64,000 nt of DNA from Polytrichum commune. Its lineage: Eukaryota > Streptophyta > Polytrichopsida > Polytrichales > Polytrichaceae. The stretch covers positions 47,516,758-47,580,757 of the forward strand of contig OX485805.1 of the NCBI GenBank assembly GCA_950295325.1, in the 5' to 3' direction. The position numbers and the translations under genes are program-made. This document shows positions 9,301-61,882 of the stretch, piece after piece (positions within the stretch are counted from its first letter, which is position 1; each line of letters starts with the position of its first letter). Under the pieces are notes generated by a model. It did not search any database and was not told the origin of the DNA. It saw only the letters and a program-made list of their open reading frames with translations.

Positions 9301-12300
9301 GCTTCAATTTGCAAAATAGGTTTCTGACTTTGCCATGAATCAATCTCTTCTATGGATCAATTTTGTGCTTTGGGAATTTTTATTCATTAATTGCATATTT
9401 AATTGCATCACATGAGCCGTGCTTTTGGGTTTTTGCAATAGCCTCTTAGGCAAGTGTAGGGTTTCAAAGTTGAGATCTTGCATCTAAGATTGCTAAATAT
9501 ATGCAAATAGTGTTGTCTACCATGTGTGTAAGAGCATTCACAAATCTACAAATTACCAACATTTTATCACCCTTCTAATAGTTTATGCAGCATATATGGG
9601 AACCCATTCAGTGCAAGCATTTAGTCCTTGAACAAATAGGTTCGAAATAAAATTACTTGCTGTATATTTGAACTCTTGTCAAAAGTGGTCTTTGCAGATG
9701 GTCTAGAAAATGTTCATGCTAATTAAATTTAGGCATTTCTGATGTGGAAAGGTTTTATTCTTCTGTGTTCAGGTTAATTACCATGTAGTATGTCTTGCTT
9801 CAGAGCCACTAGTTACTGCCGCTGTAGACTTCTTTCAACAATTGAGTTCAGGTGTGCCTTCTACCCAAGTCAATAGCTCTACAGTGTTTCTAACAGATAG
9901 TTTTGTTCTTAGTGATTCACTCGATTGGGTCATCATACTATTTCAGAAGTGGTCTAGTGGAATGGCTGGGCTTGAGTTGTTTGCCAAACTGTTATACCTA
10001 TGACAGTAGTTGTTATATGTAAATTGTTTTGGCATAAATATGGTACTTTATCCTCTCAATTGTGGGGAAATAATCTTCAGATGGGAAAGATGTGGTGGTA
10101 CATTGCCTCTGAAATGGTATCCAAAATAGTATTCATGGAAGGGATGCCGTTTTGCATATACCTACCATTTTGCATATTCCGGTTCAGCTTAATGCAATCA
10201 AACTGATTGAAGCTAATGTTTTCCAATGTAAAATTATACTATTTCAAAATGTATGTGTCTTGTATTGAAAGTCGCATATATATATGATCTGTTTATCCTG
10301 ACGTCTATTGTGGTTTTGTTATAATTTGGTGCAGTCTATGAAGTTTGTCGGCTGGGTAATCACATGCCTGTTGGTATGGTTGGGGGCCAGTCAGGGCCTG
10401 TGGCAAGCTCTAGTAAACCAAACCTACCTGGCTTTACGCTGGTGGAATTGCCTGGGGTAACCTACACTCCAAGTCGGGAGGATTATTCTAGTGCATCTTC
10501 ATGGAGCTTGGCAAAAAGTTTTGTAGCTAGCATGGGAGAGAATTGGAGTATGGATGAGTACCGGAAAAGTCTGAGAAAAGTCTGCAAATCCTTGTCCATT
10601 TCACCTGGATCTTCAACAACTCAGCGTGATCCAGAACAAGGACCTTGTACGGTGAGTTCACTTCCAGAATTTTTTTCTAGTTCTCATGTGTAGGTACGTA
10701 GTTAGACATAAAAAGATTGCCTCCATCTGGTTCCTATTGGGGTTAACTTGCTTATGGAGGCTATTTCCAATGTCATGTGTAGTGTTAGTTGTGCATCTGC
10801 TGGAATCTTCTGAATTACTCTATTTGCAATGTCTCTGCAATCCTTTGTTGCCTAAGAGGACAGGAGGGGTTGCATTTTCTGTACCTCCTGCATTTGTTAA
10901 GGCTATACCACCATATTCAATATGCATACATGCAAAGCAAATAAAGTTATGCATTTATTTGATCAACTGTAGAATCTCTAGTTACATGAAAGAGTTGTGC
11001 AGATCCTTGGAGGTCTATCTGCCTAAGACTTTGGACAGATTACTGAACCCATCTTTGTCATGCTTTTCATTGCAGGTTGTCTATGTTGTGTGCCCTGTGT
11101 CTGATCCAGCTGGAATATTGCAAACAATGCTGGATTCTTGCTCAAGTTTGGGTTCGGCAATCACAAGTATAGAACGTGAACAACAAGCAGGGATGGGTGG
11201 AATAGACGAGGATCTACTTTCAAACATCCTGGGGTTCTCGATACCTCGGTTTGCATTACAGTTGGTCACTGCAGAAACAATATTCAAGACTAGCGGCCCT
11301 CAAGTACCTGCTGTTGACGTGTTGAAAGAAGTAGCCTTGGGTGTGTATAATAAAGTTCGTCGTATCCCTCGTCGTCCTCACAAAAATGATAGTGTACAGC
11401 AACCTGGTGTTGGCAGTCTTGGAACTCGTGTACGTGCTGGGATTAGTGCGCCTGCAGCTCTACAGTCAAATGCTTCGATGCCTGGTCTTTGGAAGGACTG
11501 CACCACCCAACGCAGTAGTGGGAGTGCTAATATGAGTACTTTGGACTCGGCTAGCAATCTGGATACTTGGGAGGGTGGTTGGAAACAATCATCAATGCAA
11601 ACTGATGCAGGTCCTTCTCTATTCTATTCTATATTGAAGAGGCTATATTTGTCATAGCATTCTTAATGGTGTAGTGTGTGTTTTCGCTAGAGGAGCATCC
11701 TCAAGAATATACAAATAGTGAGATTCAACATGGCTAGGTCTTTAAGTTGAATCTTAGTAAATGGGAGAAGGTGCTGTCTGGAGATAGGTAACAGTGAGTT
11801 GTCCACTAATGAGAGCTTGCCGCTTGACTATGCTTGGTATTCATGGATGTAATCAATGACCTTGATTCTTGGATTCATTCTTGAAGCTAAATTAGAAAGA
11901 GAATCTCCTTAGACATGCCTAAGAATGCTATGGTAACCTGCTGCTACATTGCCCAGCAGGTGGTAAAGACATAGTTGTAGGCATGGCTGTCTGTGCAAGA
12001 TGAATGGGGCTCGTTGCATTAATTTGTGCAATTGTGTTGCTCTACATATTCATGGTGTTCTTAAATCTTGTTGATTAGTTTTCAAGCATGCAATCTTGGT
12101 GCTTTTTTTTGTTGCTAATGAGAGAATATCACATCAATGACCATGCGCACATTCTTAATGTACCTCGTTCATGTGCCAGGTACTCCTAGTGGTGAATCTA
12201 CACATGATGCTGTTCGATACTTGTATGAACCTGCATTCATCCTGGCAGAGGCTGGCACTCCTGATGCAGGGGTGGGGCTAGCTCCAGCAAGAACAGCTTC

Positions 12301-17688: not shown

Positions 17689-20600
17689 TTATTCTAAAGC
17701 TGCAACAAGTATAGTGTGTTCAATGCAGACCTTAACGTCATGTTGAATTCCCTCTGGAAGGGTGGGAAGAATTTGAGTCGGTTGTGTGCAGAAGTCGACA
17801 TAATTGTCGCCAGCCACGGAGTATGATGCCTCAGGTGATGATCCTTTGGTGATGACATGATCAGTTACATGCTGCGCCTGCAAAGTTATTGTTGGACTAG
17901 CTCTCTTGATTACGGGGTTAATTGTGATGTTGTCAGCCTCAAAACTGAAATCCTCCTCGGTTTCGGTTGGGGAAGTTGATTGCACTGAAACTGCGCTCAT
18001 CTCGGGGATTGATGTGGAGTTCAGGGTTTGAAGTCTTGAATGTTGCAAGGCTTCGCCTGCTGCAGCACAGTAATGATCCAACAACATGGCGCCGGGATTG
18101 AAATTGCTGGGGTTCATAGTACTAGCTGATGTGGATCCCCGGGTGGCACCCATCTGCATCTTTACAACATGATTTCATTGGAGGTGCCAATTAAATATTT
18201 GCTAAAAGCACTGTCTTGGATCTGCTTTTGACTTATGACGAGCAATTTTTAGGCTATAGAAATCTGTTTGTAATTATGAATTCTCTTAGAATTCACCAAA
18301 CCACATGCCTAGGGTGTTTGACTGAATGGTGAAACCTGCTTTGGAATACATTTCTAAAGATTTAGTTCGAAGAGTATCAGAAATATATGAAAATGCAAAC
18401 TTTTCTCAGGCAAAGGACACAAATGATATGACATAAGAAAGCATCAATTCACCTAGAAGCTCAAGAAATGGGTGTGGATGGTGATCCCTGCTTTAGGAAA
18501 ATGGATTCAAATTAGCGCTAAGTTGAACATCATCAACATTTAAAACTTTAGTTTTGTTACCTTTTTTTAATTCAAACACACATGGTTGCAATCAATGGAT
18601 TCTTGACGGCCTGGTGCCCTCTTTACTTTCTTTCCATGCATGTTGCTCTCTAAGGTAGACGTTCCTACTTCGGTTACTTACCTTAATCAGACACCTACAT
18701 TTGAGCGGTGTGGTGTTTGGCATGTTCGAAGGAAATTGGTCTGCGTGTTTGAAATATGACAATCATTTTAGGTTCAATAGTCAACATAACTGGGGGACCT
18801 ATACGATCATTTAATGAGCACGAAATCCTTCATTTTCAAAGTGAAAGAGAGATTTTCATACAAGCTCCGAAAATTATGAGGGAAGTGTCTACGGCCTTAA
18901 TGTGGATGTTCTTACCATCTTGCACTTATCACGTGTTTACTATCCTAGGAGAAGTGGGCTTGTGGACAAAAGTAACCATTCAAGACCCATCTACCTTAAG
19001 TCCTTTGTGACATACCAATAGCATCACGAATCCAGTAGAAGCAATATATGAAGTGATTTTGAAACAATTGACATTGTGAAGAGGAGATGCATGTGGGTAG
19101 GGTGTTTCACCGATGTTGCAGTAGTACCGACATAGGCATCCATGTAAGCTCGTTTCTGAAGTTCCCGCAGATGCAGGAATCGCTGGAAATCGGAACTGTA
19201 ATGGGGCGCTGGTGATTTCATCTGGCGATCCGAATTGTTGACCTTCCTCCACAATGACTCAGTCATTTGAGCCCTCCACGTTCGGAAGAATGCCTCCTGA
19301 GCTGAGCCGCCACTAATTATTCCAGGCTGATGCTGATGCTCCTGCAGATTCTCAGTCCGAGCATCAGCATCGTGTGCATCATCACCTGTGCAAGCGGAGA
19401 GGTTAACTCTTGATTTTTGATTTTGATTTTGAGGAGCATCCGAAAGGAGTGCATATTGTGAGTCTTGCGAAATGTTGTGACTTGAAGAGTGATGATTTTG
19501 TGTGCCGATGTTCTGCAGTTGCAATCGTTTCTTGAGGTGAGTGTTCCAGTAATTCTTGATTTCATTGTCGGTTCGCCCTGGAAGATGAGCTGCTATCGCC
19601 GACCACCTGCACAGCTTTATGAACTTCAGGATTAATTTAGGTTTACGTAGAACATCCAAGAAATTACCAGATACCATGTTCCCAGGGTAGCAACTATGTG
19701 TAGCACCTGGTTTGGATCTGCTTAGACATTCTTAAGAAGCACGATTGTGATCCCTGCTTAAGAAAATCTTGCTTCTAATTACTTATGAATACGACATTTG
19801 AATTTGTAAACTTTGTCGAATTCAGACACAACTGGTATCACTGGTCTCCTCTCAGCGCCCTCTTTTCAAACGAGTTGCTCCTCTTTGTGAAACCACAAAT
19901 TATCAATTCACTAGAAGATATTTACAAACAACTGTTCTAAATAGGAGATTTGCCACCTGGGGGCATACTACCTCGGGATCAGAACTATCAGTAATCCGGT
20001 GCTGGGGTGGACAATCTTGGTAATCTTCTTCTTGGGCAATCTCGAAGACGAAGAAAGATGATAGACAAGTCATGAATGGCTAATTAATTTAATGAACGCA
20101 CCTGTTTCCTAATAAACTGTGGAGATGCACAATCATTTGATCTTCTTCCCGGGAGAAGCGACCGCGCTTGATGTCTGGCCGCAGGTAATTCGTCCACCGC
20201 AACCGACAACTCTTGCCGCACCTCTGCAGTCCTGCATTAAGTGTAGAGATTTCAAAAAGCCACCGATCAGTACCCGGGATCACCAATATTCATGATTCAT
20301 GACAATGAAACCATATACCCAACCCGGCGACGAAGAAGATTTCCGAATGCCAAGTATATATATATATATATATATAACACGTCGTCAGAATTCTTTGACA
20401 TGATGTGTAGTTCTTCAAGAGCACATGCAACCTGAAGATCATAATATCATGAAGATTGATCATTTTCTTCGCATATGATGAGAAACCCTTACTTACATAT
20501 GAGAAACCCATTGTCTTCCTCCTCTCATCTTTGTACCTCCCCCACATGGCTTAATTATCCTAAGAGTGGAATTCTAGTGCAGAGAATTCTGGATTCAGTT

Positions 20601-40413: not shown

Positions 40414-40695
40414 TTAGCTAACATCTACTAACATTTGCTTAATAGCTAGCATCTACTAACATTTGCTTAATAGCTAGCATCTACTAACATTTGCTTAATA
40501 GCTAGCATCTACTAACATTTGTTTAATAGCTAGCATCTACTAATATTTGCTTAATAGCTAGCATCTACTAACATTTGCTTAATAGCTAGCATCTACTAAC
40601 ATTTGTTTAATAGCTAGCATCTACTAATATTTGCTTAATAGCTAGCATCTACTAACATTTGCTTAATAGCTAGCATCTACTAATATTTGCTTAGC
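40414..40695 (+). repeat. 28-bp tandem array, about ten copies
   Basis: The unit is TAGCTAGCATCTACTAACAT plus TTGCTTAA. Copies start every 28 bases from 40443 and vary mainly at two sites (AAC/AAT and GCTT/GTTT), giving a recurring higher-order order of variants. The GCTAGC core is palindromic. The array ends about 180 bp before the truncated GH1 sequence. Confidence 0.95.
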
Positions 40696-43599: not shown

Positions 43600-44034
43600 A
43601 AATAATCACCTTTCTAACAAGCATCATCTCATCGTGCTACCAAATGCAATTCATAATGATTGTCTTTTCAACTTAAAGAATCAGAGAACACTATATTCGT
43701 TAATTTGGGTTTTTTTGGGCATTTTGAGACATTTACAAATCGAAGAACATGGATAAAATGACACAAATATTGGAGATTATTGTAAGATGCCAATACTTTG
43801 AAGCGGGTGTTCATATCAAGGAACCAAAAAAGAACTGATATCGAGATGGTTTAGGAAGAACAATCCAAACATTAGATCATATTGAAGGGGAAATCATATG
43901 ACACTTATTGCAAATAAAATATACAACGTATGGCATGTAAATCAAATAGCATGCTAACACCACACATCCATTGCAAAGTGCAACCCAAAATCATCTTGCC
44001 TATGGCCCAAAACCCTATGCCTACTCTGGCCTAT
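43600..44034. other. intergenic between GH1 relic and LRR gene
   Basis: No gene is seen. As the flank 3' of the minus-strand LRR gene, it may contain that gene's 3' UTR. Confidence 0.4.
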
Positions 44035-47000
44035 CTAGCCTTGGAGATAGCATCTTTTTCTTTTGCAGCGGATTTCCAATGCCCGACATCTCATGAAATT
44101 GAGCTCCTCCAGGGCTACGAGGTTGCTCACTCCAACAGGGCACTCTTCCAAAGCCTCACATTCAAACATGTGCAATATTCTTAGTTTCGTCAAGTTGCCA
44201 AAGCTTTCCGGGATCGTTTTCAATGCCCCACATCTTGCGAAATGGAGCTCCTCCAGGGCTACAAGGTTGCTTACTCCAACACGGAACTCCTCCAATGCCT
44301 CACATTCAAACATGCACAGTATTTTCCATTTTGTCAAGTTGCCAAAGCTTTCCGGGATCCTTTTCAATGCACGACATGTCCCGAAATTGAGCTCCTCCAG
44401 GGCTACGAGGTTGCTCACTCCAACAGGGAACTCCTCCAAAGCCTCACATTTAAACATGCACAATATTTTCAATCTTGTCAATTTGCCAAAGCTTTCCGGG
44501 ATCCTTTTCAGTGCCCGACATGTTCCAAAAATGAGCTCCTACAGCGCTACGAGGTTGCTCACTCCAACAGGGAACTCCTCCAAAGCCTCACATTCAGACA
44601 TGTCCAATATTTTGAGTTTCGTCAAGTTGCCAAAGCTTTCCGGGATCCTTTTCAGTGCCCGACATGTCCCGAAATTAATCTCCTCCAGGCCTACGAGGTT
44701 GCTCACTCCAACAGGGAACTCCTCCAAAGCCTCACATTCATACATGCGAAGTATTTTCAGATTTGTCAAGTTACCAAAGCTTTCCGGGATCCTTTTCAGT
44801 GCCCGACATGTCCCGAAATTAATCTCCTCCAACGCTACGAGGTTGCTCACTCCAACAGGGAACTCCTCCAAAGCCTCACATTCATACATGCGCAGTATTT
44901 TCAATTTTGTCAAGTTGCCAAAGCTTTCCGGGATCCTTTTCAGTGCCCGACGTCTCCCGAAATTGAGCTCCTCCAACGCTACGAGGTTGCTCACTCCAAC
45001 AGGGAACTGATCCAAAGCCTCACATTCAGACATGTCCAATTTTTTGAGTTTCGTTAAGTTGCCAAAGCTTTCCGGGATCCTTTGGAGTCCCCGACATGAC
45101 CCGAAATTGAGCTCCTCCAACGCTACGAGGTTGCTTACTCCAACAGGGAACTCCTCCAAAGCCTCACATTCAGACATGTCCAATTTTTTGAGTTTCGTCA
45201 AGTTGCTAAAGCTTTCCGGGATCATTTTCAATGCCCGACATCTTGCGAAATTGAGCTCCTCCAACGCTACGAGGTGCCTCACTCCAACAGGGAACTCCTC
45301 CAAAGCCTCACATTCAGACATGTCCAATATTTTGACTTTCGTCAAGTTGCCAAAGCTTTCCATGATCCTTTTCAGTGCCCGACATCTTGAGAAATGGAGC
45401 TCCTCCAGGGCTACGAGGTTGCTTACTCCAACAGGGAACTCCTCCAAAGCCTCACATTCAGACATGTCCAATTTTTTGAGTTTCGTCAAGTTGCCAAAGC
45501 TTTCCGGGATCATTTTCAATGCCCGACATCTTGCGAAATTGAGCTCCTCCAACGCTACGAGGTTCCTCACTCCAACAGGGAACTCCTCCAAAGCCTCACA
45601 TTCAGACATGTCCAATTTTTTGAATTTCGTCAAGTTGCCAAAGCTTTCCGGGATCATTTTCAATGCCCGACATCTTGCGAAATTGAGCTCCTCCAACGCT
45701 ACGAGGTGCCTCACTCCAACAGGGAACTCCTCCAAAGCCTCACATTCAGACATGTCCAATATTTTGACTTTCGTCAAGTTGCCAAAGCTTTCCATGATCC
45801 TTTTCAGTGCCCGACATCTTGAGAAATGGAGCTCCTCCAGGGCTACGAGGTTGCTTACTCCAACAGGGAACTCCTCCAAAGCCTCACATTCAGACATGTC
45901 CAATTTTTTGAGTTTCGTCAAGTTGCCAAAGCTTTCCGGGATCATTTTCAATGCCTGACATCTTGCGAAATTGAGCTCCTCCAACGCTACGAGGTTCCTC
46001 ACTCCAACAGGGAACTCCTCCAAAGCCTCACATTCAGACATGTCCAATTTTTTGAATTTCGTCAAGTTGCCAAAGCTTTCCGGGATCATTTTCAATGCCC
46101 GACATCTTGCGAAATTGAGCTCCTCCAACGCTACGAGGTTCCTCACTCCAACAGGGAACTCCTCCAAAGCCTCACATTCAGACATGTCCAATTTTTTGAG
46201 TTTCGTCAAGTTGCCAAAGCTTTCCGGGATCATTTTCAATGCCCGACATCTTGCGAAATTGAGCTCCTCCAACGCTACGAGGTTCCTCACTCCAACAGGG
46301 AACTCCTCCAAAGCCTCACATTCATACATGTCCAATTTTTTGAGTTTTGTCAAGTTGCCAAAGCTTTCCGGGATCATTTTCAATGCCCGACATCTTGCAA
46401 AATTGAGCTCCTCCAACGCTACGAGGTTCCTCACTCCAACAGGGAACTCCTCCAAAGCCTCACATTCAGACATGTCCAATTTTTTGAGTTTCGTCAAGTT
46501 GCCAAAGCTTTCCGGGATCATTTTCAATGCCCGACATCTTGCGAAATTGAGCTCCTCCAACGCTACGAGGTTCCTCACTCCAACAGGGAACTCCTCCAAA
46601 GCCTCACATTCATACATGTCCAATTTTTTGAGTTTTGTCAAGTTGCCAAAGCTTTCCGGGATCATTTTCAATGCCCGACATCTTGCAAAATTGAGCTCCT
46701 CCAACGCTACGAGGTTCCTCACTCCAACAGGGAACTCCTCCAAAGCCTCACATTCAGACATGTCCAATTTTTTGAGTTTCGTCAAGTTGCCAAAGCTTTC
46801 CGGGATCATTTTCAATGCCCGACATCTTGCGAAATTGAGCTCCTCCAACGCTACGAGGTTCCTCACTCCAACAGGGAACTCCTCCAAAGCCTCACATTCA
46901 GACATGTCCAATTTTTTGAATTTCGTCAAGTTGCCAAAGCTTTCCGGGATCATTTTCAATGCCCGACATCTTGCGAAATTGAGCTCCTCCAACACTACGA

Positions 47001-48840
47001 GGTTCCTCACTCCAACAGGGAACTCCTCCAAAGCCTCACATTCAGACATGTCCAATTTTTTGAGTTTCGTCAAGTTGCCAAAGCTTTCCGGGATCATTTT
47101 CAATGCCCGACATCTTGCGAAATTGAGCTCCTCCAACGCTACGAGGTTCCTCACTCCAACAGGGAACTCCTCCAAAGCCTCACATTCAGACATGTCCAAT
47201 TTTTTGAATTTCGTCAAGTTGCCAAAGCTTTCCGGGATCATTTTCAATGCCCGACATCTTGCGAAATTGAGCTCCTCCAACGCTACGAGGTTCCTCACTC
47301 CAACAGGGAACTCCTCCAAAGCCTCACATTCAGACATGTCCAATTTTTTGAGTTTCGTCAAGTTGCCAAAGCTTTCCGGGATCATTTTCAATGCCTGACA
47401 TCTTGCGAAATTGAGCTCCTCCAACGCTACGAGGTTCCTCACTCCAACAGGGAACTCCTCCAAAGCCTCACATTCAGACATGTCCAATTTTTTGAATTTC
47501 GTCAAGTTGCCAAAGCTTTCCGGGATCATTTTCAATGCCCGACATCTTGCGAAATTGAGCTCCTCCAACGCTACGAGGTTCCTCACTCCAACAGGGAACT
47601 CCTCCAAAGCCTCACATTCAGACATGTCCAATTTTTTGAGTTTCGTCAAGTTGCCAAAGCTTTCCGGGATCCTTTTCAGTGCCCGACATCTTGAGAAATG
47701 GAGCTCCTCCAGGGCTACGAGGTTCCTCACTCCAACAGGGAACTCCTCCAAAGCCTCACATTCATACATGTCCAATTTTTTGAGTTTCGTCAAGTTGCCA
47801 AAGCTTTCCAGGATCATTTTCAATGCCCGACATCTTGCAAAATTGAGCTCCTCCAACGCTACGAGGTTCCTCACTCCAACAGGGAACTCCTCCAAAGCCT
47901 CACATTCAGACATGTCCAATTTTTTGAGTTTCGTCAAGTTGCCAAAGCTTTCCGGGATCATTTTCAATGCCCGACATCTTGCGAAATTGAGCTCCTCCAA
48001 CGCTACGAGGTTCCTCACTCCAACAGGGAACTCCTCCAAAGCCTCACATTCAGACATGTCCAATTTTTTGAATTTCGTCAAGTTGCCAAAGCTTTCCGGG
48101 ATCATTTTCAATGCCCGACATCTTGCGAAATGGAGCTCCTCCAACGCTACGAGGTTGCTCACTCCAACAGGGAACTCCTCCAAAGCCTCACATTCAGACA
48201 TGTCCAATTTTTTCAATTTTGTCAAGTTGCCAAAGCTTTCCGGGATCCTTTTTAGTGCCCGACATGTCTCGAAATCGAGCTCCTCCAACGCTACGAGGTT
48301 GCTCACTCCAACAGGGAACTCCTCCAAAGCCTCACATTCCCACATGGGCAATATTTTCAATTTTGTCAAGTTGCCAAAGCTTTCTGGGATCCTTTTCAGT
48401 GCCCGACATGTCCCAAAATCGAGCTCCTCCAACGCTACGAGGTTGCTCACTCCAACAGGGAACTCCTCCAAAGCCTCACATTCAAACATGCACAGTATTT
48501 TCAATTTTGTCAAGTTGCCAAAGCTTTCCGGGATCATTTTCAATGCCCGACATCTTGCGAAATTGAGCTCCTCCAACGCTACGAGGTTGCTCACTCCAAC
48601 AGGGAACTCCTCCAAAGCCTCACATTCATACATGCGCAGTACTTTTAGTTTCGTCAAGTTGCCAAAGCTTTCCGGGATCCTTTTCAGTGCCCGACATGTC
48701 CCGAAAGTGAGCTCCTCCAACGCTACGAGGTTGCTCACTCCAACAGGGAACTCCTCCAAAGCCTCACATTCAAACATGCGCATTATTTTCAATTTTGTCA
48801 AGTTGGGAAACTTTCCGGGATCCTTTTCAGTGCCCGACAT
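44035..48840 (-). pseudogene. out-of-frame LRR continuation of the kinase-NB-ARC gene
   Basis: From 48840 the minus strand reads 1433 codons of pure leucine-rich repeats, stops at TAG 44539-44541, then continues in the same frame for another 160 or so LRR codons to 44035. The repeat is 48 residues: two 24-residue LRRs of the form LVALEELNFARCRALK and LTKLKKLDMSECEALEEFP, i.e. the xLxxLxxLxxxxCxxLxxxP type found in TIR-NB-LRR-like proteins. Relative to exon 3 of the upstream gene the frame is shifted by one base lost near 48809-48811, where the copy has TTGGGAAACTTTCC for TTGCCAAAGCTTTCC. The TAG arises from GAG in VALEEL. If the deletion is real, this part is untranslated; if it is a sequence error, it is the main LRR domain. 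Confidence 0.85.
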
Positions 48841-49000
48841 GTCCCGAAAGTGAGCTTCTCCAACGCTACGAGGTTGCTCACTCCGACAGGGAACTCCTCC
48901 AAAGCCTCACATTTAGACATGTCCAATATTTTTAGTTTCGTTAAGTTGCCAAAGCTTTCCGGGATCATTTTTAAACATCGACATTTGGAAAATGATAATT
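44060..49000 (-). repeat. 34-copy tandem array of a 144-bp LRR unit
   Basis: The block CCAAAGCTTTCCGGG (plus strand) recurs every 144 bases from about 44190 to 48941, 34 times, with slippage of one base only at 48798-48811. The central copies (45.2-48.2 kb) are nearly identical; the outer ones are more diverged. Variant marks repeat at multiples of the unit: GAGAAATGG at 45389, 45821 and 47693 (3 and 13 units), and ATGCCTGACA at 45951 and 47391 (10 units). Confidence 0.97.
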
Positions 49001-52000
49001 TTTCCAAGCATGACATGTTGGCTAGCTGAATAGAGGTGCCATCAAGGTCTTCACAATTGAAGAAGCATAACTCTTCTAAGGTGACGAGTTTATCAACTCC
49101 AATGAGGAATTCATCCAATTGTTTGCAATTTGAGAATGATAATTCCCGGATCTGCATCATATTCAAGTATTCACAAGAAATTGATCCCAACAAATTGCAA
49201 TTGGACATCGCAAGGTATCGCAAATTTTGGAGATTTTCTAGTGTATCAATGAAAAACTTCCCAATGAATTGGTTTGTCAACATTGTAGAGTCAATGCGTT
49301 TGGGTGAGAACTGGATGTCCAACCATTTAAGATTGGGTGATTTCTTCACAATAGCAGAAAGCAGGTTAACATTTTCACAAAATCGGACTTGGAGTAGACA
49401 AAGCTTTTCCATCGATTTTATTTCCACATCTCCTTCACACGTTGACTTGTTTTCCAAATTTGTAATTGATAGGCCTTGGACAAGTTCTATGCCCTACATA
49501 CACAACAAAACACATGAGTTGATTTGTTTCCATCTCGAATACAATGGATTTAGAGCTATTGGCATATTATATAACTTTTGCAATTTAATAGAACTTGTCA
49601 AGAAGTTAATAAGGAATATCAACTTGTACAAAACCCAAACTATATACCTTTTCTTTACAACGATTGACGAATGTCGGGTAACTTATATTAAAAATTCGAG
49701 TCCCCGTAAAATCCTTTTCCGTAATCAGACGGCCCATCTCACGCAATTGATCATGAATGTAAAAACCTTCCCAGTCATTCACTTTCAACAATGATTTTTC
49801 TTGAAGCCTTTTCAAGACATTTTTGGCAATGTTGATATCACCATCCCACATTCTAAGATATGATTCTTTTGTTGGATAAACACCATCAAGATATGCATCT
49901 TTACAAAAGAAACATGCTATGTCTAGAAACATGTTTCTTTCTAGATCATTTAGCTCATCAAAGCTTATCCTCAATGTCTTCCAAATCTTCTCATCTGAAC
50001 CTCCATCATGTCTTGCCCTCAACACCCTATACAATGTTCGCTCCCATATTCTCAATCGTGCTTCCCCTTGCATGCATTTGCCCATCACCTCCAAACTCAA
50101 AGGAAGTCCACAACATGCATCCACAATCTTTTCAACCACATGTTTTAAATGAGGTGAACATGATTGGTTGGTCCCAAAAGCATACATTGAAAATAGCTCC
50201 ATAGCTTGGTTCCCATCGAGGGTTTGCATGTCTACTTTACCACCCATGGGTACATGTTGTTCCAAGGAGTTCCAATCACGAGAACTTGCAATCAACCTAC
50301 TACCATTGACATTTTTGAACAAATCATCATGATCCAATAGTTGTTGTAGTTGTCTTTGTTTGCCCACGTTGTCCACCACAATGAGAATATTTTTTGTTCT
50401 TTGAATATCTTTTAAAAACTTTTGTGTTGTTATCAATGTTTTGGCTTGGGGACGTGAGTCTTGCATGCCTTTGGAGTTGTGTTGTACTTGCAATGTACAA
50501 GTTTCATCCTTCAAGTCGTACACAAAACATGTTGCATCAAATCCCTTGGAGATGTGGTCACTCAAAGCCTTAGCCAACGTCGACTTGCCACTTCCGCCCA
50601 TGCCAACAAGTCCTAGACAATCAACACTTTGAAGTTGCCTTTCCAATTGGAAAACTTTGTCTTGGACTCCAATTAATTTCGACAATTCTTTCATGTTGTC
50701 ATCATTGTTGACCTACAAAATTTCCAACTTCTCAAATTTAGTGAGTGTTATTAACATGATAGAGTTGGTGAGGCCTCTTCAATTATCCCAAATAAAGTTG
50801 AAATCTAGTAACTTCCATTTATAAACTCAACCACGCGCTTACCTTCATGGAAAATGGATTTGATGATGATCCATTAGAGACCTTTTGGGCCCTTGGAAAT
50901 AAGGTTGGACGATTAGCATGTTTAAATTTGAATATGAACCATAAGTATCGGATCCAAGAGACCAAAACAAAGCATAAGTATGATAAAACTTTCCATAAGG
51001 AGCCACGTGTATCATTTGTAGCTCCTCCAACTGTAACCACACCCTTGAGGATCGTAAGTCTTTTCAAACTTGTAAGTTTGTTGTGAATACCAAGAAATGT
51101 TGGTCTTTCCAAAGGATCCAACGACCAACAATCATGCACCATTGATCTTAATTCTTCCGAATAGGATTCTGGCAGCTTTGGTCTACAAGAATCTTCTAAT
51201 ATGTACTTTCGATATTCACGAAATGAACCAAGAGGCAATTTCTCTGCCGAAAGAATATCAAAACACAACATGCCAAAACTAAACACATCAGCTTTCAAAG
51301 CATCCACCTCTGATAATTCATTCGCCATCATCTCTGGCGCCATGTATCCATGAGTTCCTATGTTTCGACCTGTGGGCACCTCCCCACAATCCTTCACTTC
51401 AACCTTTGAAATACCAAAATCAAGTAGTTTCACTTGTATGCACCCAAGATCAATCAACGTCGAATCATTTGGTAGAGTCACAACAACATTACCAGGCTTT
51501 AGGTCACGATGTGCCACCTTCATATCATGAAGGTAGCACATTCCATTTGTAATTTGTAACATAATGTCCAGTGCGTTTGTCTCTTCAAGAGGACCTTTTT
51601 CACTTAGATATTCTGATAAGGTTTTCTCTCCATATTCCATAACAAGCTCAAATTTGTTTTCCACCTCAAGAAAACCACAACAATAAAACTTGATGATGTT
51701 TGGATGATTCAACCCTCCCAAAATACTTGCTTCTTTCCAAAGTCGTTTTATGTCCTTGGGATCACGGATGTCAAACACCTTTGTTGCAGATTCCAAACCC
51801 AACCAATCTGTCAAGAACACACACATGTTGTTTGACCTTCCCAAAACCTTAGGTGGATTTTCTTTATATTTGGGGCGAGGATAATTGTAAGGAAAATCAA
51901 TTTTGTCCAATCCACCACCTTCAACATGTTGTAGACTCCTTAGGTACTCCTTAAGGTATTGCGCAAGTTTGCAATCATCGCAATCCGTGGTTGTGCATGA

Positions 52001-52468
52001 ATCCAAATGCTTAGAAAACCTTCCACATATTGAAGTTTGATCCTCTTTAACTGCATCGATGGATGTTGGGTAGAATATCATATCATTCTTGATTGCAAGA
52101 ATTTTCGATTCTTGAGCTGGATGGTAAAGGCAAGATATGTCACAAATTGTATGAAAACAATTTTCAAAATCCAAAAGGAGTTCTCTGAAGCCCTCTTTGT
52201 TGGTCAATTGTGTCACTACAACGCGACACCAATCTTCTCTGCAACAATCTTCAATTAGCACTTTTGCTTTGTATACAATTTGATACAGATCTTCTTCTGC
52301 TTTGCGGAACACCTCGTTATGACCACTTGTGATGCTTTGCAATGCTTGCACACCATTTTGAAAGTTGAAGAACAAATTCTCGCATTGTCTTCTATTCAAT
52401 ACTTCATCCAACAATGATATTGCAGGAAATTCCACACTCCCCATTGCTAGCCGCATAACATTTGCCAT
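48798..52468 (-). CDS. protein kinase-NB-ARC-LRR resistance-type protein (truncated by frameshift)
   Basis: Three exons join in phase 0: 52468-50843, 50712-49648, 49493-48798, giving 1128 residues as read. Residues 1-200 are an alpha-helical region of unknown family. Residues 207-467 are a kinase: Lys230, Glu246, HRD 320-322, DFG 350-352 and APE 377-379 are present, but the glycine-rich loop is replaced by LGRSNNMCVF. Residues about 491-515 are strongly hydrophobic. Exon 2 is an NB-ARC: P-loop GMGGSGKST (579-587), kinase-2 ILIVVDNV, RNBS-B GSRLIASSRD, GLPL, FLDIACFF and an IHDQLREMG MHD-type motif. FLDIACFF and the final Asp of kinase-2 are TIR-NB-LRR-like features. Exon 3 starts with irregular LRRs, enters the 144-bp repeat array, and ends at a stop 12 bases after the frameshift. 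Kinase-NB-ARC-LRR proteins are known from mosses. The role would be intracellular immune sensing; ligand unknown. Whether this allele is active is uncertain. Confidence 0.9.
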
Positions 52469-59100: not shown

Positions 59101-60166
59101 GTCGAGCTCACTTGTATATAATGAACCATTGTTCATTTGGAATTTAAATGCACACTTTCTATCATAGGCTTGTGTTTCTTCATGCAGTGCAGGTGTTCTT
59201 CGTTGTGTTGTTGTTTTTGTTGTTGTTGCTACATTGGAAGCTAGTGATTGGTTGGTTTTTTGCTCTTGTAAGCCTTCGTTGGCATTGTTGCATAGCTTTG
59301 TGAATTCGGTAGCGTATGAATTATTAAGGACAAGGTGCGAGATGTATGTCAAGTAATTGGAGTAAGAGTAATTGAAAAGACAGATGAGCAGTGTGCGAAC
59401 TTGCTTTGGCTAACCCGCATTTTGAACAATGTGTGCATTGCAGGTTGACGAGGGTGTGGTTGGGCACATTCGAGACTCTCACCGCCAAGCTTCACCGCTG
59501 GTACTTGCAGTCGCAGCAACAAGAAGGCCAACCAGTAGGGGAGTCAAAACCCTCGCAGTCGCTCACCTGCAGTCGCAGCAATCGAACCTCGGCATCTACC
59601 ATTGGAAAACGGGCAAGCAGGAGGAGCCCAATTGGGTGCGCAACGTCGAGTTCGCCACCAGCCTCTTGACTCGCAGCCTCAGCCAGCAAATTGTTCATGA
59701 CAATTACGGTTCGTTTGAGTTTTCTTTTGATTTGAGAATGTCTGTTGGAATGGGTAGCATGGTGCTGAAGTAGAGTGATGCCTGGAAGTAGCATTGAGGT
59801 TCCTTTTTGTATTTCATCGGTTCATGGTATGAACTTGCAGGAATGTTGGCTCGTAGTTTCACATCTTCGATTGTAAATTGGGCAATACATGACATTGTTT
59901 GTGTTCAGGATCAAAAAAATTATGTAACCAACTCAAAATCTTGGAGGCATTTCAATCAAATGTGGCAGTCTACTGACTTGTGATACGTGTTGTTCATTTG
60001 CGCTCACCTGTGGTACGGTACGTTACTTGTTTTGATCGAATTTGTGATGATACATGAATAATGTTGCTGCTAAAACAATTCAATGCACCAGTTTTGCTAA
60101 ATTATCATGGTGACTTATGTTGAGTGCTCATTTAGGGGAATGGTTTGGCAAATATAGGTACTTCCA

Positions 60167-61882
60167 ATGGCAAGTAAATCCACGCACAAACGAGTGGATT
60201 TATCAAACTCTGAAAAGAAGCAAATTTGTGAAGTCCACAAAGCTCATCCAGGTTTGAAACATGAAGACCTTGCAAAATATATGGTGGACCAACATAAATT
60301 CAAGCTTGTGAATCGGACCACTATTTCCAAGATTCTTCGTTCAAAAGAGAAGTGGATGAACGTGGATACATGTGTGCGTGAAGGCAATGTACGACGTGCT
60401 CGAGTTGGAAAATGGCCTCAGCTTGAAAAAGCTTTGGTTTTATGGTTTGGACAGGTTAGGGCACGAAGGGGAGTTGTAACTGATGATGTCATTATGCACA
60501 AGGCTACAGAATTGAGGGATTCATTTGGCATATCTGATACCGAGTTCAAGCTTTCTCATGGGTGGTTGCAAAATTTCAAAACTCGACATGGAATAAAGTG
60601 TTATTATCTGCATGGAGAAAGTGGAGATGTAGATGGAGTTGGAGCTGCGTTGGCCATGGCAAAGATCCCATTCATATTGAAGAAATATGATCCTGAAGAC
60701 ATCTTCAATTTTGATGAGACAGGTTTGTATTATAAAGCCTCTCCTTGCAAGACTTTGAATATTGGGAAGGCAAAAGGAAATAAAAAGAAGAAGGACCGTG
60801 TGACATTGGGGCTTTGCACTAATATCTCAGGGAAGGAGCGATTGAAGCTTGTTTTCATTCACAAATCAACACGTCCCAGATGCTTTCCTCGGAAGTTTGA
60901 TCCAAATAGTATAGTACACTATTATTCTAACAATTCAGCCTGGATGAATGGTGATGTTTTTACACATTGGGTGAAGAGTGAGAACCGAAGAATGGCATTG
61001 CAAGATAGAAAAATTTGCATTATTATGGATAATGCAGGAAGCCATGATATTCATGGTGAGGTCAAAAAAGTTATAGATGGATTTAATGCTTTTGTACTCT
61101 CCCATATCACTATCTTGTTTCTTCCACCAAATGTGACTTCAGTTGTTCAGCCTTTGGATCAAGGAGTGATTGCAGCATTCAAAATGTGCTATAAACGCAA
61201 GCTTGTTGCCTGGACTTTGCAACAAATTGATAACTCAAATGAAGATTTGGGGAAACTGAATGTTGATATATTTCAAGCAATGCTATGGTGTGTGGCGGCA
61301 TGGCATGAATTAGATGATCAAACCATTAGAAATTGTTGGAGAAAGTTTGCCATATTGCCTGCAGCGTGGAATGCAGATATCAACAATTCTGATGAACGTA
61401 TGAAGTCCAAAATGGAGGAAGCAGCTTTGGAATTGGGCAATCTCATCGCCGCATTGAATTTGGGTTTGGATGTTGAAGGCAAGCCTAAAGAAAAGCTTAG
61501 TCCTTTAGAGTACATAAACATGGAAGGTGAAGATGATTTTGAGGTGGAATATTCTACTGAGGAGCTTGTGCAATTAGTGCAAGATGGCGAACATGTACTT
61601 GATTCCATGGAAGAAGACCCATTGATTGTTGATAGCAATGATGATGAGTCTAAAGTAGTGAAGCTAAGCGATGCACAAAAATATGCTAAAGATGTTTTGA
61701 ATTTTATGGCTAGCCAAGGTTCTCAGATTTTCAACACTCATGAGTTGTTAGGAATGGAAAACATCCATGACAAACTCATTAGAATTGGTGTTGGACATTT
61801 AACATCACTAAAACAATGTGACATTAGAAGCTTCTTTGTCTCTAGTGAGAGGTCTTTACCTGATCTCAATGACACATTGTGA
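60167..61882 (+). CDS. Tigger/pogo-like transposase
   Basis: One uninterrupted frame of 571 codons starts at ATG in ACTTCCAATGG. Residues about 8-62 form a psq/CENP-B N-terminal helix-turn-helix (LSNSEKKQICEVHKAH ... TTISKILRSKEKW). Residues about 80-145 form the second, CENP-B/Tc5-type HTH (GVVTDDVIMHKATEL ... SHGWLQNFKTRHGI). The DDE_1 nuclease follows, with the three acidic residues visible as NFDETGLYY (Asp183), IIMDNAGSH (Asp288) and VVQPLDQGVIAAFK (Asp331). The C-terminus is acidic and ends with a DIRSFF motif. Length and order match full-size transposases of this family. It binds the terminal repeats, cuts and reinserts the element at TA. No intron or lesion is seen, so it may be active; a leader intron ending near 60157 is possible. 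Confidence 0.97.
   Translation: MASKSTHKRVDLSNSEKKQICEVHKAHPGLKHEDLAKYMVDQHKFKLVNRTTISKILRSKEKWMNVDTCVREGNVRRARVGKWPQLEKALVLWFGQVRARRGVVTDDVIMHKATELRDSFGISDTEFKLSHGWLQNFKTRHGIKCYYLHGESGDVDGVGAALAMAKIPFILKKYDPEDIFNFDETGLYYKASPCKTLNIGKAKGNKKKKDRVTLGLCTNISGKERLKLVFIHKSTRPRCFPRKFDPNSIVHYYSNNSAWMNGDVFTHWVKSENRRMALQDRKICIIMDNAGSHDIHGEVKKVIDGFNAFVLSHITILFLPPNVTSVVQPLDQGVIAAFKMCYKRKLVAWTLQQIDNSNEDLGKLNVDIFQAMLWCVAAWHELDDQTIRNCWRKFAILPAAWNADINNSDERMKSKMEEAALELGNLIAALNLGLDVEGKPKEKLSPLEYINMEGEDDFEVEYSTEELVQLVQDGEHVLDSMEEDPLIVDSNDDESKVVKLSDAQKYAKDVLNFMASQGSQIFNTHELLGMENIHDKLIRIGVGHLTSLKQCDIRSFFVSSERSLPDLNDTL

Follow-up and report, generated by a model that had tools for sequence, protein, structure and literature searches.

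Mosses possess a class of protein kinase-NBS-LRR (PNL) genes (Xue et al. 2012, PMC3352924), which appears as Pkn-NLR in PMC11218826. In the excerpts of these two papers available to us, homogenised tandem LRR arrays are not described for this class. Very large LRR domains are already known in plants, as in the CC-type NLR Tsw with its 57 LRRs and seven quasi-identical blocks of six (PMC9585916, in excerpt). In fungi, excerpts of PMC12222747 and PMC4986451 describe the HET-D/HET-E NLRs as having near-identical repeats under concerted evolution, a binding surface in which a few codons are hypervariable, and variation in repeat number. Tetrahymena harbours LRR genes with very long and young arrays of 90-bp exons, which are ascribed to unequal exchange (PMC6564038, in the part available).

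The gene studied here is located in a window of 64,000 nucleotides from Polytrichum commune (contig OX485805.1, positions 47,516,758 to 47,580,757), and all positions below are those of the window. It resembles the moss PNL genes, as excerpted, in domain order, in a TNL-related NB-ARC, and in phase-0 introns at both domain borders (PMC3352924), whereas two of its relatives carry kinase, NB-ARC, and LRR all in one exon. In the part of PMC9585916 available, Tsw shares with the present arrays an LRR domain of more than 1,000 aa built partly of near-identical blocks, but it is CC-type; here the unit consists of one or two 24-aa LRRs, the longest frames hold ~60-77 LRRs, and all 32 relatives examined carry arrays. 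The likeness to HET-D/HET-E, as far as the excerpts go, lies in concerted near-identical repeats and hypervariable surface codons, with repeat number compared here among paralogs. However, the repeats of the fungal high-internal-conservation NLRs are of WD40, ANK or TPR type and their N-terminal domains differ, whereas this family has LRRs and a kinase. The Tetrahymena genes, from the same limited source text, are similar in their very long LRR arrays; there, every unit is a separate LRR exon and introns are present, whereas here the array is in a single exon and the genes are NLRs.

Gene structure and class

Three exons on the minus strand encode a kinase, an NB-ARC, and LRRs in the order proposed in a preliminary description of this DNA. 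Exon 1 (50843..52468) comprises 542 stop-free codons from the ATG and runs from a ~200-aa helical N-terminal region through the protein kinase (Pfam Pkinase 8.9e-39) to a hydrophobic stretch. Exon 2 (49648..50712, 355 codons) contains the NB-ARC (Pfam NB-ARC 3.4e-22) and a Roq1-like winged helix (Pfam WHD_ROQ1 8.9e-06), and the LRR exon begins at 49493. The introns (50713..50842 and 49494..49647), whose splice sites were read from sequence and open frames, do fall at the domain borders as had been stated, and both are GT-AG and phase 0. With a 14-sequence profile, the top solved relative of the NB-ARC is Roq1 (1.5e-51), with the TIR-type 7crb at 8.3e-35. The N-terminal kinase, TNL-type NB-ARC, and two phase-0 introns are those of the PNL class; as to the C-terminal LRRs, ~7-8 are in frame in the window gene and the relatives have long in-frame LRR domains. 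Judged from its sequence, the locus is a putative kinase-NB-ARC-LRR (PNL-class) immune-receptor gene with several close relatives nearby.

Among single-domain solved structures, the exon-1 profile best matches PDB 6lba (1.3e-47) and 6ka4 (2.1e-41), both presumably Arabidopsis MLKL; an EGFR construct is the first match because it contains two kinase domains. The N-terminal region of 6lba gives a weak collinear match to exon 1, which 3 of 200 shuffles equalled in score and which is not significant alone. With a profile restricted to the exon-1 N-terminal region, 6lba was not among the matches up to E 10, MLKL_N was detected in one of 11 members (0.0058) and not in the window gene, and the model of the N-terminal region is unusable (pLDDT 37). 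Plant MLKL is a pseudokinase without catalytic residues, and in 6lba the HRD and DFG residues are missing from the corresponding alignment positions, whereas K230, E246, and the HRD, DFG, and APE kinase motifs are invariant across 18 aligned sequences, including the window gene. The glycine loop is degraded in its clade. Unlike plant MLKL, the kinase is here followed by an NB-ARC-LRR. An MLKL-type nature of exon 1 may be taken as a lead only.

The array and its reading frame

The tandem LRR array of the window gene (44072..48971, minus strand) comprises 34.0 units of 144 bp, a number taken from one assembly, with 94% matches and a TRF score of 8083, far above chance. Each unit corresponds to two 24-aa LRRs, and the array holds 68-70 LRRs (70 with a 24-aa profile over all frames). 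Central units are mostly 0-2 of 144 bases off the consensus, and the units at either edge of the array are clearly divergent. The homogenised 34-copy array reported earlier is thereby confirmed. An array open frame of 1455 codons (44539..48906; Pfam LRR_14 1.4e-154) lies out of the NB-ARC frame and terminates at the TAG at 44539-44541, a stop position usual for the family. The last array piece (44035..44538) carries the tail RCKRKRCYLQG followed by a stop, and this tail is also present in L001, L014, L016, and L017. The array end and a conserved 3' flank (43701..44120) are shared, at 92-97% identity over their length, by seven of the 20 close loci (L001, L002, L003, L013, L014, L016, and L017).

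The array had been thought to share its reading frame with the kinase and NB-ARC exons, which the assembled sequence does not confirm. The NB-ARC frame extends 231 codons into exon 3 (48798..49493) and ends at 48798 with a TGA reached through a frameshift, while the array is read in another frame. Comparison with the next unit reveals a one-base deletion with neighbouring substitutions at ~48805..48811, the exact base being uncertain. In the NB-ARC frame, the profile detects 4-5 LRRs, or ~7-8 when irregular leading repeats are counted by eye, and the predicted product is a kinase-NB-ARC with ~7-8 LRRs and 1,128 aa. Because the frameshift puts the array outside the NB-ARC frame, the window gene as assembled encodes no giant solenoid, and a single 68-LRR protein from this assembled copy is ruled out. 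An intron in exon 3 restoring the frame would have to be new, since several siblings read through without one, such as the nearest relative, L001 (open LRR exon, 1579 codons, 60 LRRs). Following the frame of a tandem array matters, as ignoring it overstates the coding content of this gene. The 20-base sequence at the deletion has an exact match in none of the 20 close paralogs, and the deletion appears private to the window gene among these loci. The window copy may represent a recent loss-of-function or short-form allele.

A plain pseudogene, whose array now grows and becomes uniform as non-coding tandem DNA, the LRR frame being a relic of recent coding ancestry, is the slightly favoured account of the window copy. 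Its frameshift is early and private, and its near-identical units differ by 13 amino-acid-changing to 2 silent changes, against 46:45 summed over the other loci (Fisher p 0.011), with some of the amino-acid changes hitting scaffold leucines. Nevertheless, the kinase and NB-ARC exons are stop-free, and their pN/pS values (0.49 and 0.32, respectively) fall within the range of the siblings or on its border. Moreover, L002 and L019, which also have early lesions, display no such excess (4:6 and 4:3), and the event set is small. The same intact exons 1 and 2 would suit a functional short form, whose ~7-8 LRRs would suffice for NB-ARC contacts though they are too few to make a long sensor. For other NLRs, the LRRs reported to touch the remainder of the protein lie among the first 4-10 (PMC9585916, in excerpt), and LRR-less PN-type genes are common in P. 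patens, making up 18 of 45 PNL-class genes (PMC3352924, in excerpt). Additionally, L015 stops comparably early (253 codons), and exon-junction-dependent transcript decay is not expected as the truncation is in the last exon. However, the stop stems from a private deletion whose sequence none of the 20 close loci contains, and a functional short form is considered unlikely.

Arrays across the family

LRR arrays are a trait of the family, a 144- or 72-bp array being found in all 32 relatives examined (20/20 close, 10/10 distant, and 2/2 single-exon). Unit number ranges from 4.0 to 38.3 across the 20 close loci, which are paralogs. L006 has an open LRR exon of 1835 codons with 71-72 LRRs, and L031 has a single-exon open frame of 2,924 aa with kinase, NB-ARC, and 77.4 units of 72 bp (~77 LRRs). 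Long arrays at so many separate loci speak against the deletion, the unit number or both being assembly errors that hide one long receptor. Near-identical 144-bp units are difficult to assemble, but substitutions adjoin the deletion, unlike a plain homopolymer slip, and exons 1-2 are stop-free in 17 of 21 genes, which indicates that indel errors are not common. Such an error is judged quite improbable.

Units are more alike within than between arrays in 19 of 20 arrays, L020 being the exception. Among the 20 arrays with eight or more units, mean within-array identity is 0.827-0.931 (0.928 in the window gene), and even the lowest mean lies above the 80% within-gene repeat identity of high-internal-conservation NLRs. 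Across the successive fifths of 19 arrays, frame lesions number 2, 3, 2, 13, and 76 (n=96). In the 17 arrays that carry lesions, the first one lies on average at position 0.626, a value reached in 0 of 100,000 uniform simulations. In most family genes, the frame is thus open through most of the array and lost near the 3' end. Amplification of clean central units alone predicts lesion-bearing old units at both ends, whereas lesions were found at the 3' end of these 19 arrays.

Scaffold and exposed positions

Over 18 arrays with 355 distinct units, pN/pS is 1.33 at exposed beta-strand positions and 0.22 at other positions, these being pairwise counts over related units in which some scaffold residues are fixed by unit selection. 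The exposed/other ratio was matched by 35 of 20,000 random position sets; a register shift of +3 gave a pN/pS of 1.12, not far under 1.33. In L031, exposed positions have a pN of 0.224 and a pS of 0.022, also by pairwise counts, and the value at other positions is 0.83, where purifying selection is not clear. The scaffold appears to be kept while a few exposed LRR-strand codons vary fast, as on the recognition surface of high-internal-conservation NLRs. This pattern, together with the crowding of lesions into the last fifth (76 of 96, against 2 for the first fifth), rules out random satellite DNA as the nature of the arrays in the family.

The preliminary description had further envisaged a large solenoid or hypervariable surface changing by unit gain and loss. 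The long open arrays, the spread in unit number, the within-gene likeness of units, and the hypervariable exposed strand positions bear this out at the family level; for the window gene as assembled it fails, as the private frameshift separates its array from the NB-ARC. It is considered probable that the family parallels, in plants, the fungal high-internal-conservation NLRs, in that the scaffold is homogenised while recognition positions are hypervariable and length varies, and that the window copy is a recent knock-out or short form. Unequal exchange and gene conversion would hold units alike and alter their number, and array turnover would recombine surface variants into new recognition surfaces. 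Binding might let the NB-ARC switch, with the kinase exon as output.

More tentatively, and with somewhat less than even confidence, the family might be a self-diversifying immune repertoire of kinase-NLRs, possibly MLKL-type death executors fused to such a switch of NLR type, whose sensor has up to ~77 near-identical LRRs. Concerted evolution would hold the scaffold, with ~5 strand codons per repeat being reshuffled under diversifying selection. The length of the sensor would follow from array growth and a drifting 3' frame end. If true, the family would be the plant equivalent, built on LRRs, of HET-E-type receptors in fungi, and would amount to a natural display system for repeat proteins. 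Furthermore, concerted evolution and diversification of a repeat sensor, known for fungal NLRs, would be shown in plants with LRRs. The dozens of homogenised arrays with clear scaffold and surface codons make unit number and surface variants comparable between individuals by long reads.

Structure model of the array

A ten-unit array model of moderate confidence (pLDDT 69) served solely to back an LRR fold. It has 50 matches at E <=0.001 that resemble LRR proteins, although query TM-scores are just 0.21-0.44 and rmsd is at least 8.5. The matches include 9fqr_Xo, the title of which refers to a whole microtubule complex.

Structure of the window gene

The kinase-NB-ARC-LRR gene starts with an ATG in exon 1 (52468-50843, minus strand), which encodes the kinase (Pfam Pkinase, 8.9e-39). 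Exon 2 (50712-49648, minus) carries the NB-ARC domain (Pfam, 3.4e-22) with a Roq1-type winged helix (8.9e-06), and exon 3, from 49493 (minus), encodes the LRRs. Both introns are GT-AG and of phase 0, which together with the Pfam matches bears out the preliminary description of three exons with one domain each. Its 34 units of 144 bp, holding two LRRs apiece, are likewise upheld, as TRF finds 34.0 copies at 44072-48971, the unit encodes two 24-aa LRRs, and a profile counts 70 LRRs with all frames pooled. In the middle of the array, most units depart from the consensus at 0-2 bases. At 48700-49000, and in every unit, a splice-donor-like GTGAGC is followed by CTCGTAG (noted by eye only); cryptic splicing from unit to unit is conceivable. 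An antisense open frame of 623 aa (45823-47694, plus strand) spans the array, a by-product expected of a unit divisible by three.

In an exon-1 alignment of this gene with 17 relatives (from 25 stop-free), K230, E246 and the residues of the HRD, DFG and APE motifs are invariant in all 18 sequences. The clade of the window gene has a degraded glycine loop; in more distant members, for instance L026, L028 and L030, the loop is present. Among solved structures of a single domain, the exon-1 profile matches two plant chains best, 6lba (1.3e-47) and 6ka4 (2.1e-41), both Arabidopsis MLKL proteins, with RIPK1 (7e-37) behind them. The 6lba alignment takes in the stretch before the kinase and also the N-terminus, which is not significant on its own. 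Other lines of analysis gave little or no backing for an MLKL-type N-terminus, which may be regarded as a tentative lead. Additionally, the end of exon 1 (about 50900-51000) encodes, between the kinase and the NB-ARC domain, a hydrophobic stretch rich in tryptophan; it is kept in the close clade and is possibly membrane-associated.

Gene family in the genome

Besides the window gene itself, 20 of the 114 scored matches to the NB-ARC exon in the searched genome (64 contigs, 407.8 Mb) reach at least 80% identity. These 20 were all examined as close loci, along with ten more distant ones. Matches to the 144-bp unit number at least 699, and many of them are on the gene's own strand and within 330 kb of it. 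By TRF, every one of the 20 close loci carries a 144-bp array, with copy numbers from 4.0 to 38.3, and each of the ten distant loci has an array of 144- or 72-bp units. Two further loci, fetched as a control and chosen for their very long frames, each combine kinase, NB-ARC and LRRs within a single intronless frame: L031 (G000:C4:11943400-11952900), open over 2,924 aa with 77.4 copies of a 72-bp unit, and L032 (G000:C6:615700-625000), with 42.4 copies, also of a 72-bp unit. Kinase, NB-ARC and a giant array are thus able to share one uninterrupted frame. Open frames of 1,200-1,830 aa contain several further NB-ARC matches, which may represent the same arrangement.

Coding status of the long arrays

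Exons 1 and 2 are stop-free in 17 of the 21 genes, the exceptions being L003, L013, L019 and L020. The LRR exon is open over 1579 codons (60 LRRs) in L001, the nearest relative of the window gene by the NB-ARC exon, and over 1835 codons (71 LRRs) in L006. Lesions, meaning frame changes or in-frame stops in the array, number 96 over 19 arrays, L013 and L020 being omitted because of several stops in both early exons; from the 5' end they fall by fifths as 2, 3, 2, 13 and 76. The first lesion lies on average at 0.626 of the array (17 arrays with lesions), a mean attained by none of 100,000 uniform placements (maximum 0.356). In most genes, therefore, the reading frame persists through the greater part of the array and is lost near the 3' end. 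The last fifth is decaying, and the receptor C-terminus thus appears to lie within the array, varying by gene. The tail RCKRKRCYLQG is read in frame only in L001 among the 21 genes, and is also encoded in the DNA of the window gene, L014, L016 and L017.

The giant array had also been described as part of the same gene as the NB-ARC domain; in the window gene as assembled, the two are not in one frame. The frame continuing from NB-ARC stops at 48798, after 231 codons of exon 3, owing to one base fewer than in the next unit near 48805-48811. The array is open over 1455 codons, but in another frame, up to a TAG at 44539; a last array piece follows, ending at 44035. The product as assembled has 542+355+231 = 1,128 aa and about 7-8 LRRs, including irregular first repeats by eye (4-5 by profile). 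The deletion, at array fraction 0.07, is exceptional, while the TAG, at 0.91, is typical of the late lesions. In five genes (the window gene, L002, L015, L017 and L019) one lesion falls at or before a fraction of 0.40 and the next comes at 0.68 or beyond. None of the 20 close paralog loci contains an exact copy of the 20-base sequence found at the deletion.

Against its siblings, mean pN/pS is 0.49 for the kinase exon, inside the sibling range, and 0.32 for the NB-ARC exon, at the lower edge of the range. Among near-identical units of the window gene, 13 differences change an amino acid and 2 are silent, compared with totals of 46 and 45 for the other loci (Fisher p 0.011). This excess fits a recent loss of the array frame. 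However, that reading is weakened by L002 (4:6) and L019 (4:3), which show no such excess despite their early lesions. Less probably, the gene is a functional short form or the frameshift an assembly error.

Diversification of the repeat units

In 19 of 20 arrays of at least 8 units, the units of one gene resemble one another more closely than they do those of other genes, L020 being the exception; for the window gene the identities are 0.928 within and 0.863 between. All pN/pS figures for units are descriptive pairwise counts among related units. Among 355 distinct units drawn from 18 arrays (L012, L013 and L020 omitted, units with stops removed, two scaffold residues made invariant by the selection), pN/pS is 1.33 at those positions of the LRR strand (xxLxLxx) that are exposed and 0.22 elsewhere. 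The window gene alone, with 22 distinct units, gives 1.71 and 0.27. Out of 20,000 random ten-position sets, 35 attain the ratio and 2 the pN, and none of 23 register shifts exceeds the true ratio (nearest +3, 1.12). Variability is greatest at residues 5, 7 and 3 of the first LRR and at 5, 7 and 8 of the second. In the predicted structure of the array, strands recur about every 24 residues and cover the exposed variable positions. Units of L031 and L032 were collected with a motif that leaves five scaffold positions invariant. L031, with a different unit (35 distinct), shows the same pattern, with an exposed pN of 0.224 and pS of 0.022, its scaffold constraint not being clear since other positions give a pN/pS of 0.83; L032 shows 1.26 exposed versus 0.57 elsewhere.

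Relation to known receptors

The moss PNL class has the same anatomy as the window gene (PMC3352924), and a moss kinase domain of PNL type produced modest, variable cell death in N. benthamiana (PMC11218826). LRR domains of 1,000-3,400 aa are already known, Tsw having 57 LRRs in quasi-identical blocks (PMC9585916). Fungal NLRs are known to have concerted repeats with hypervariable codons (PMC12222747, PMC4986451), and Tetrahymena has long LRR arrays (PMC6564038). In titles and abstract starts of the open-licence literature, no report of homogenised arrays in kinase-type plant NLRs was found.

Other features of the window

An open frame at 60158-61882 (plus strand) encodes a DNA-transposon transposase, in which a Tc5-type DNA-binding domain and a DDE_1 endonuclease domain are recognised. 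Further open frames give a weak MID_MedPIWI match (10656-11657, plus) and a Myb DNA-binding domain (19024-19731, minus). A 28-bp tandem repeat at 40415-40693 has ten copies with 96% matches.
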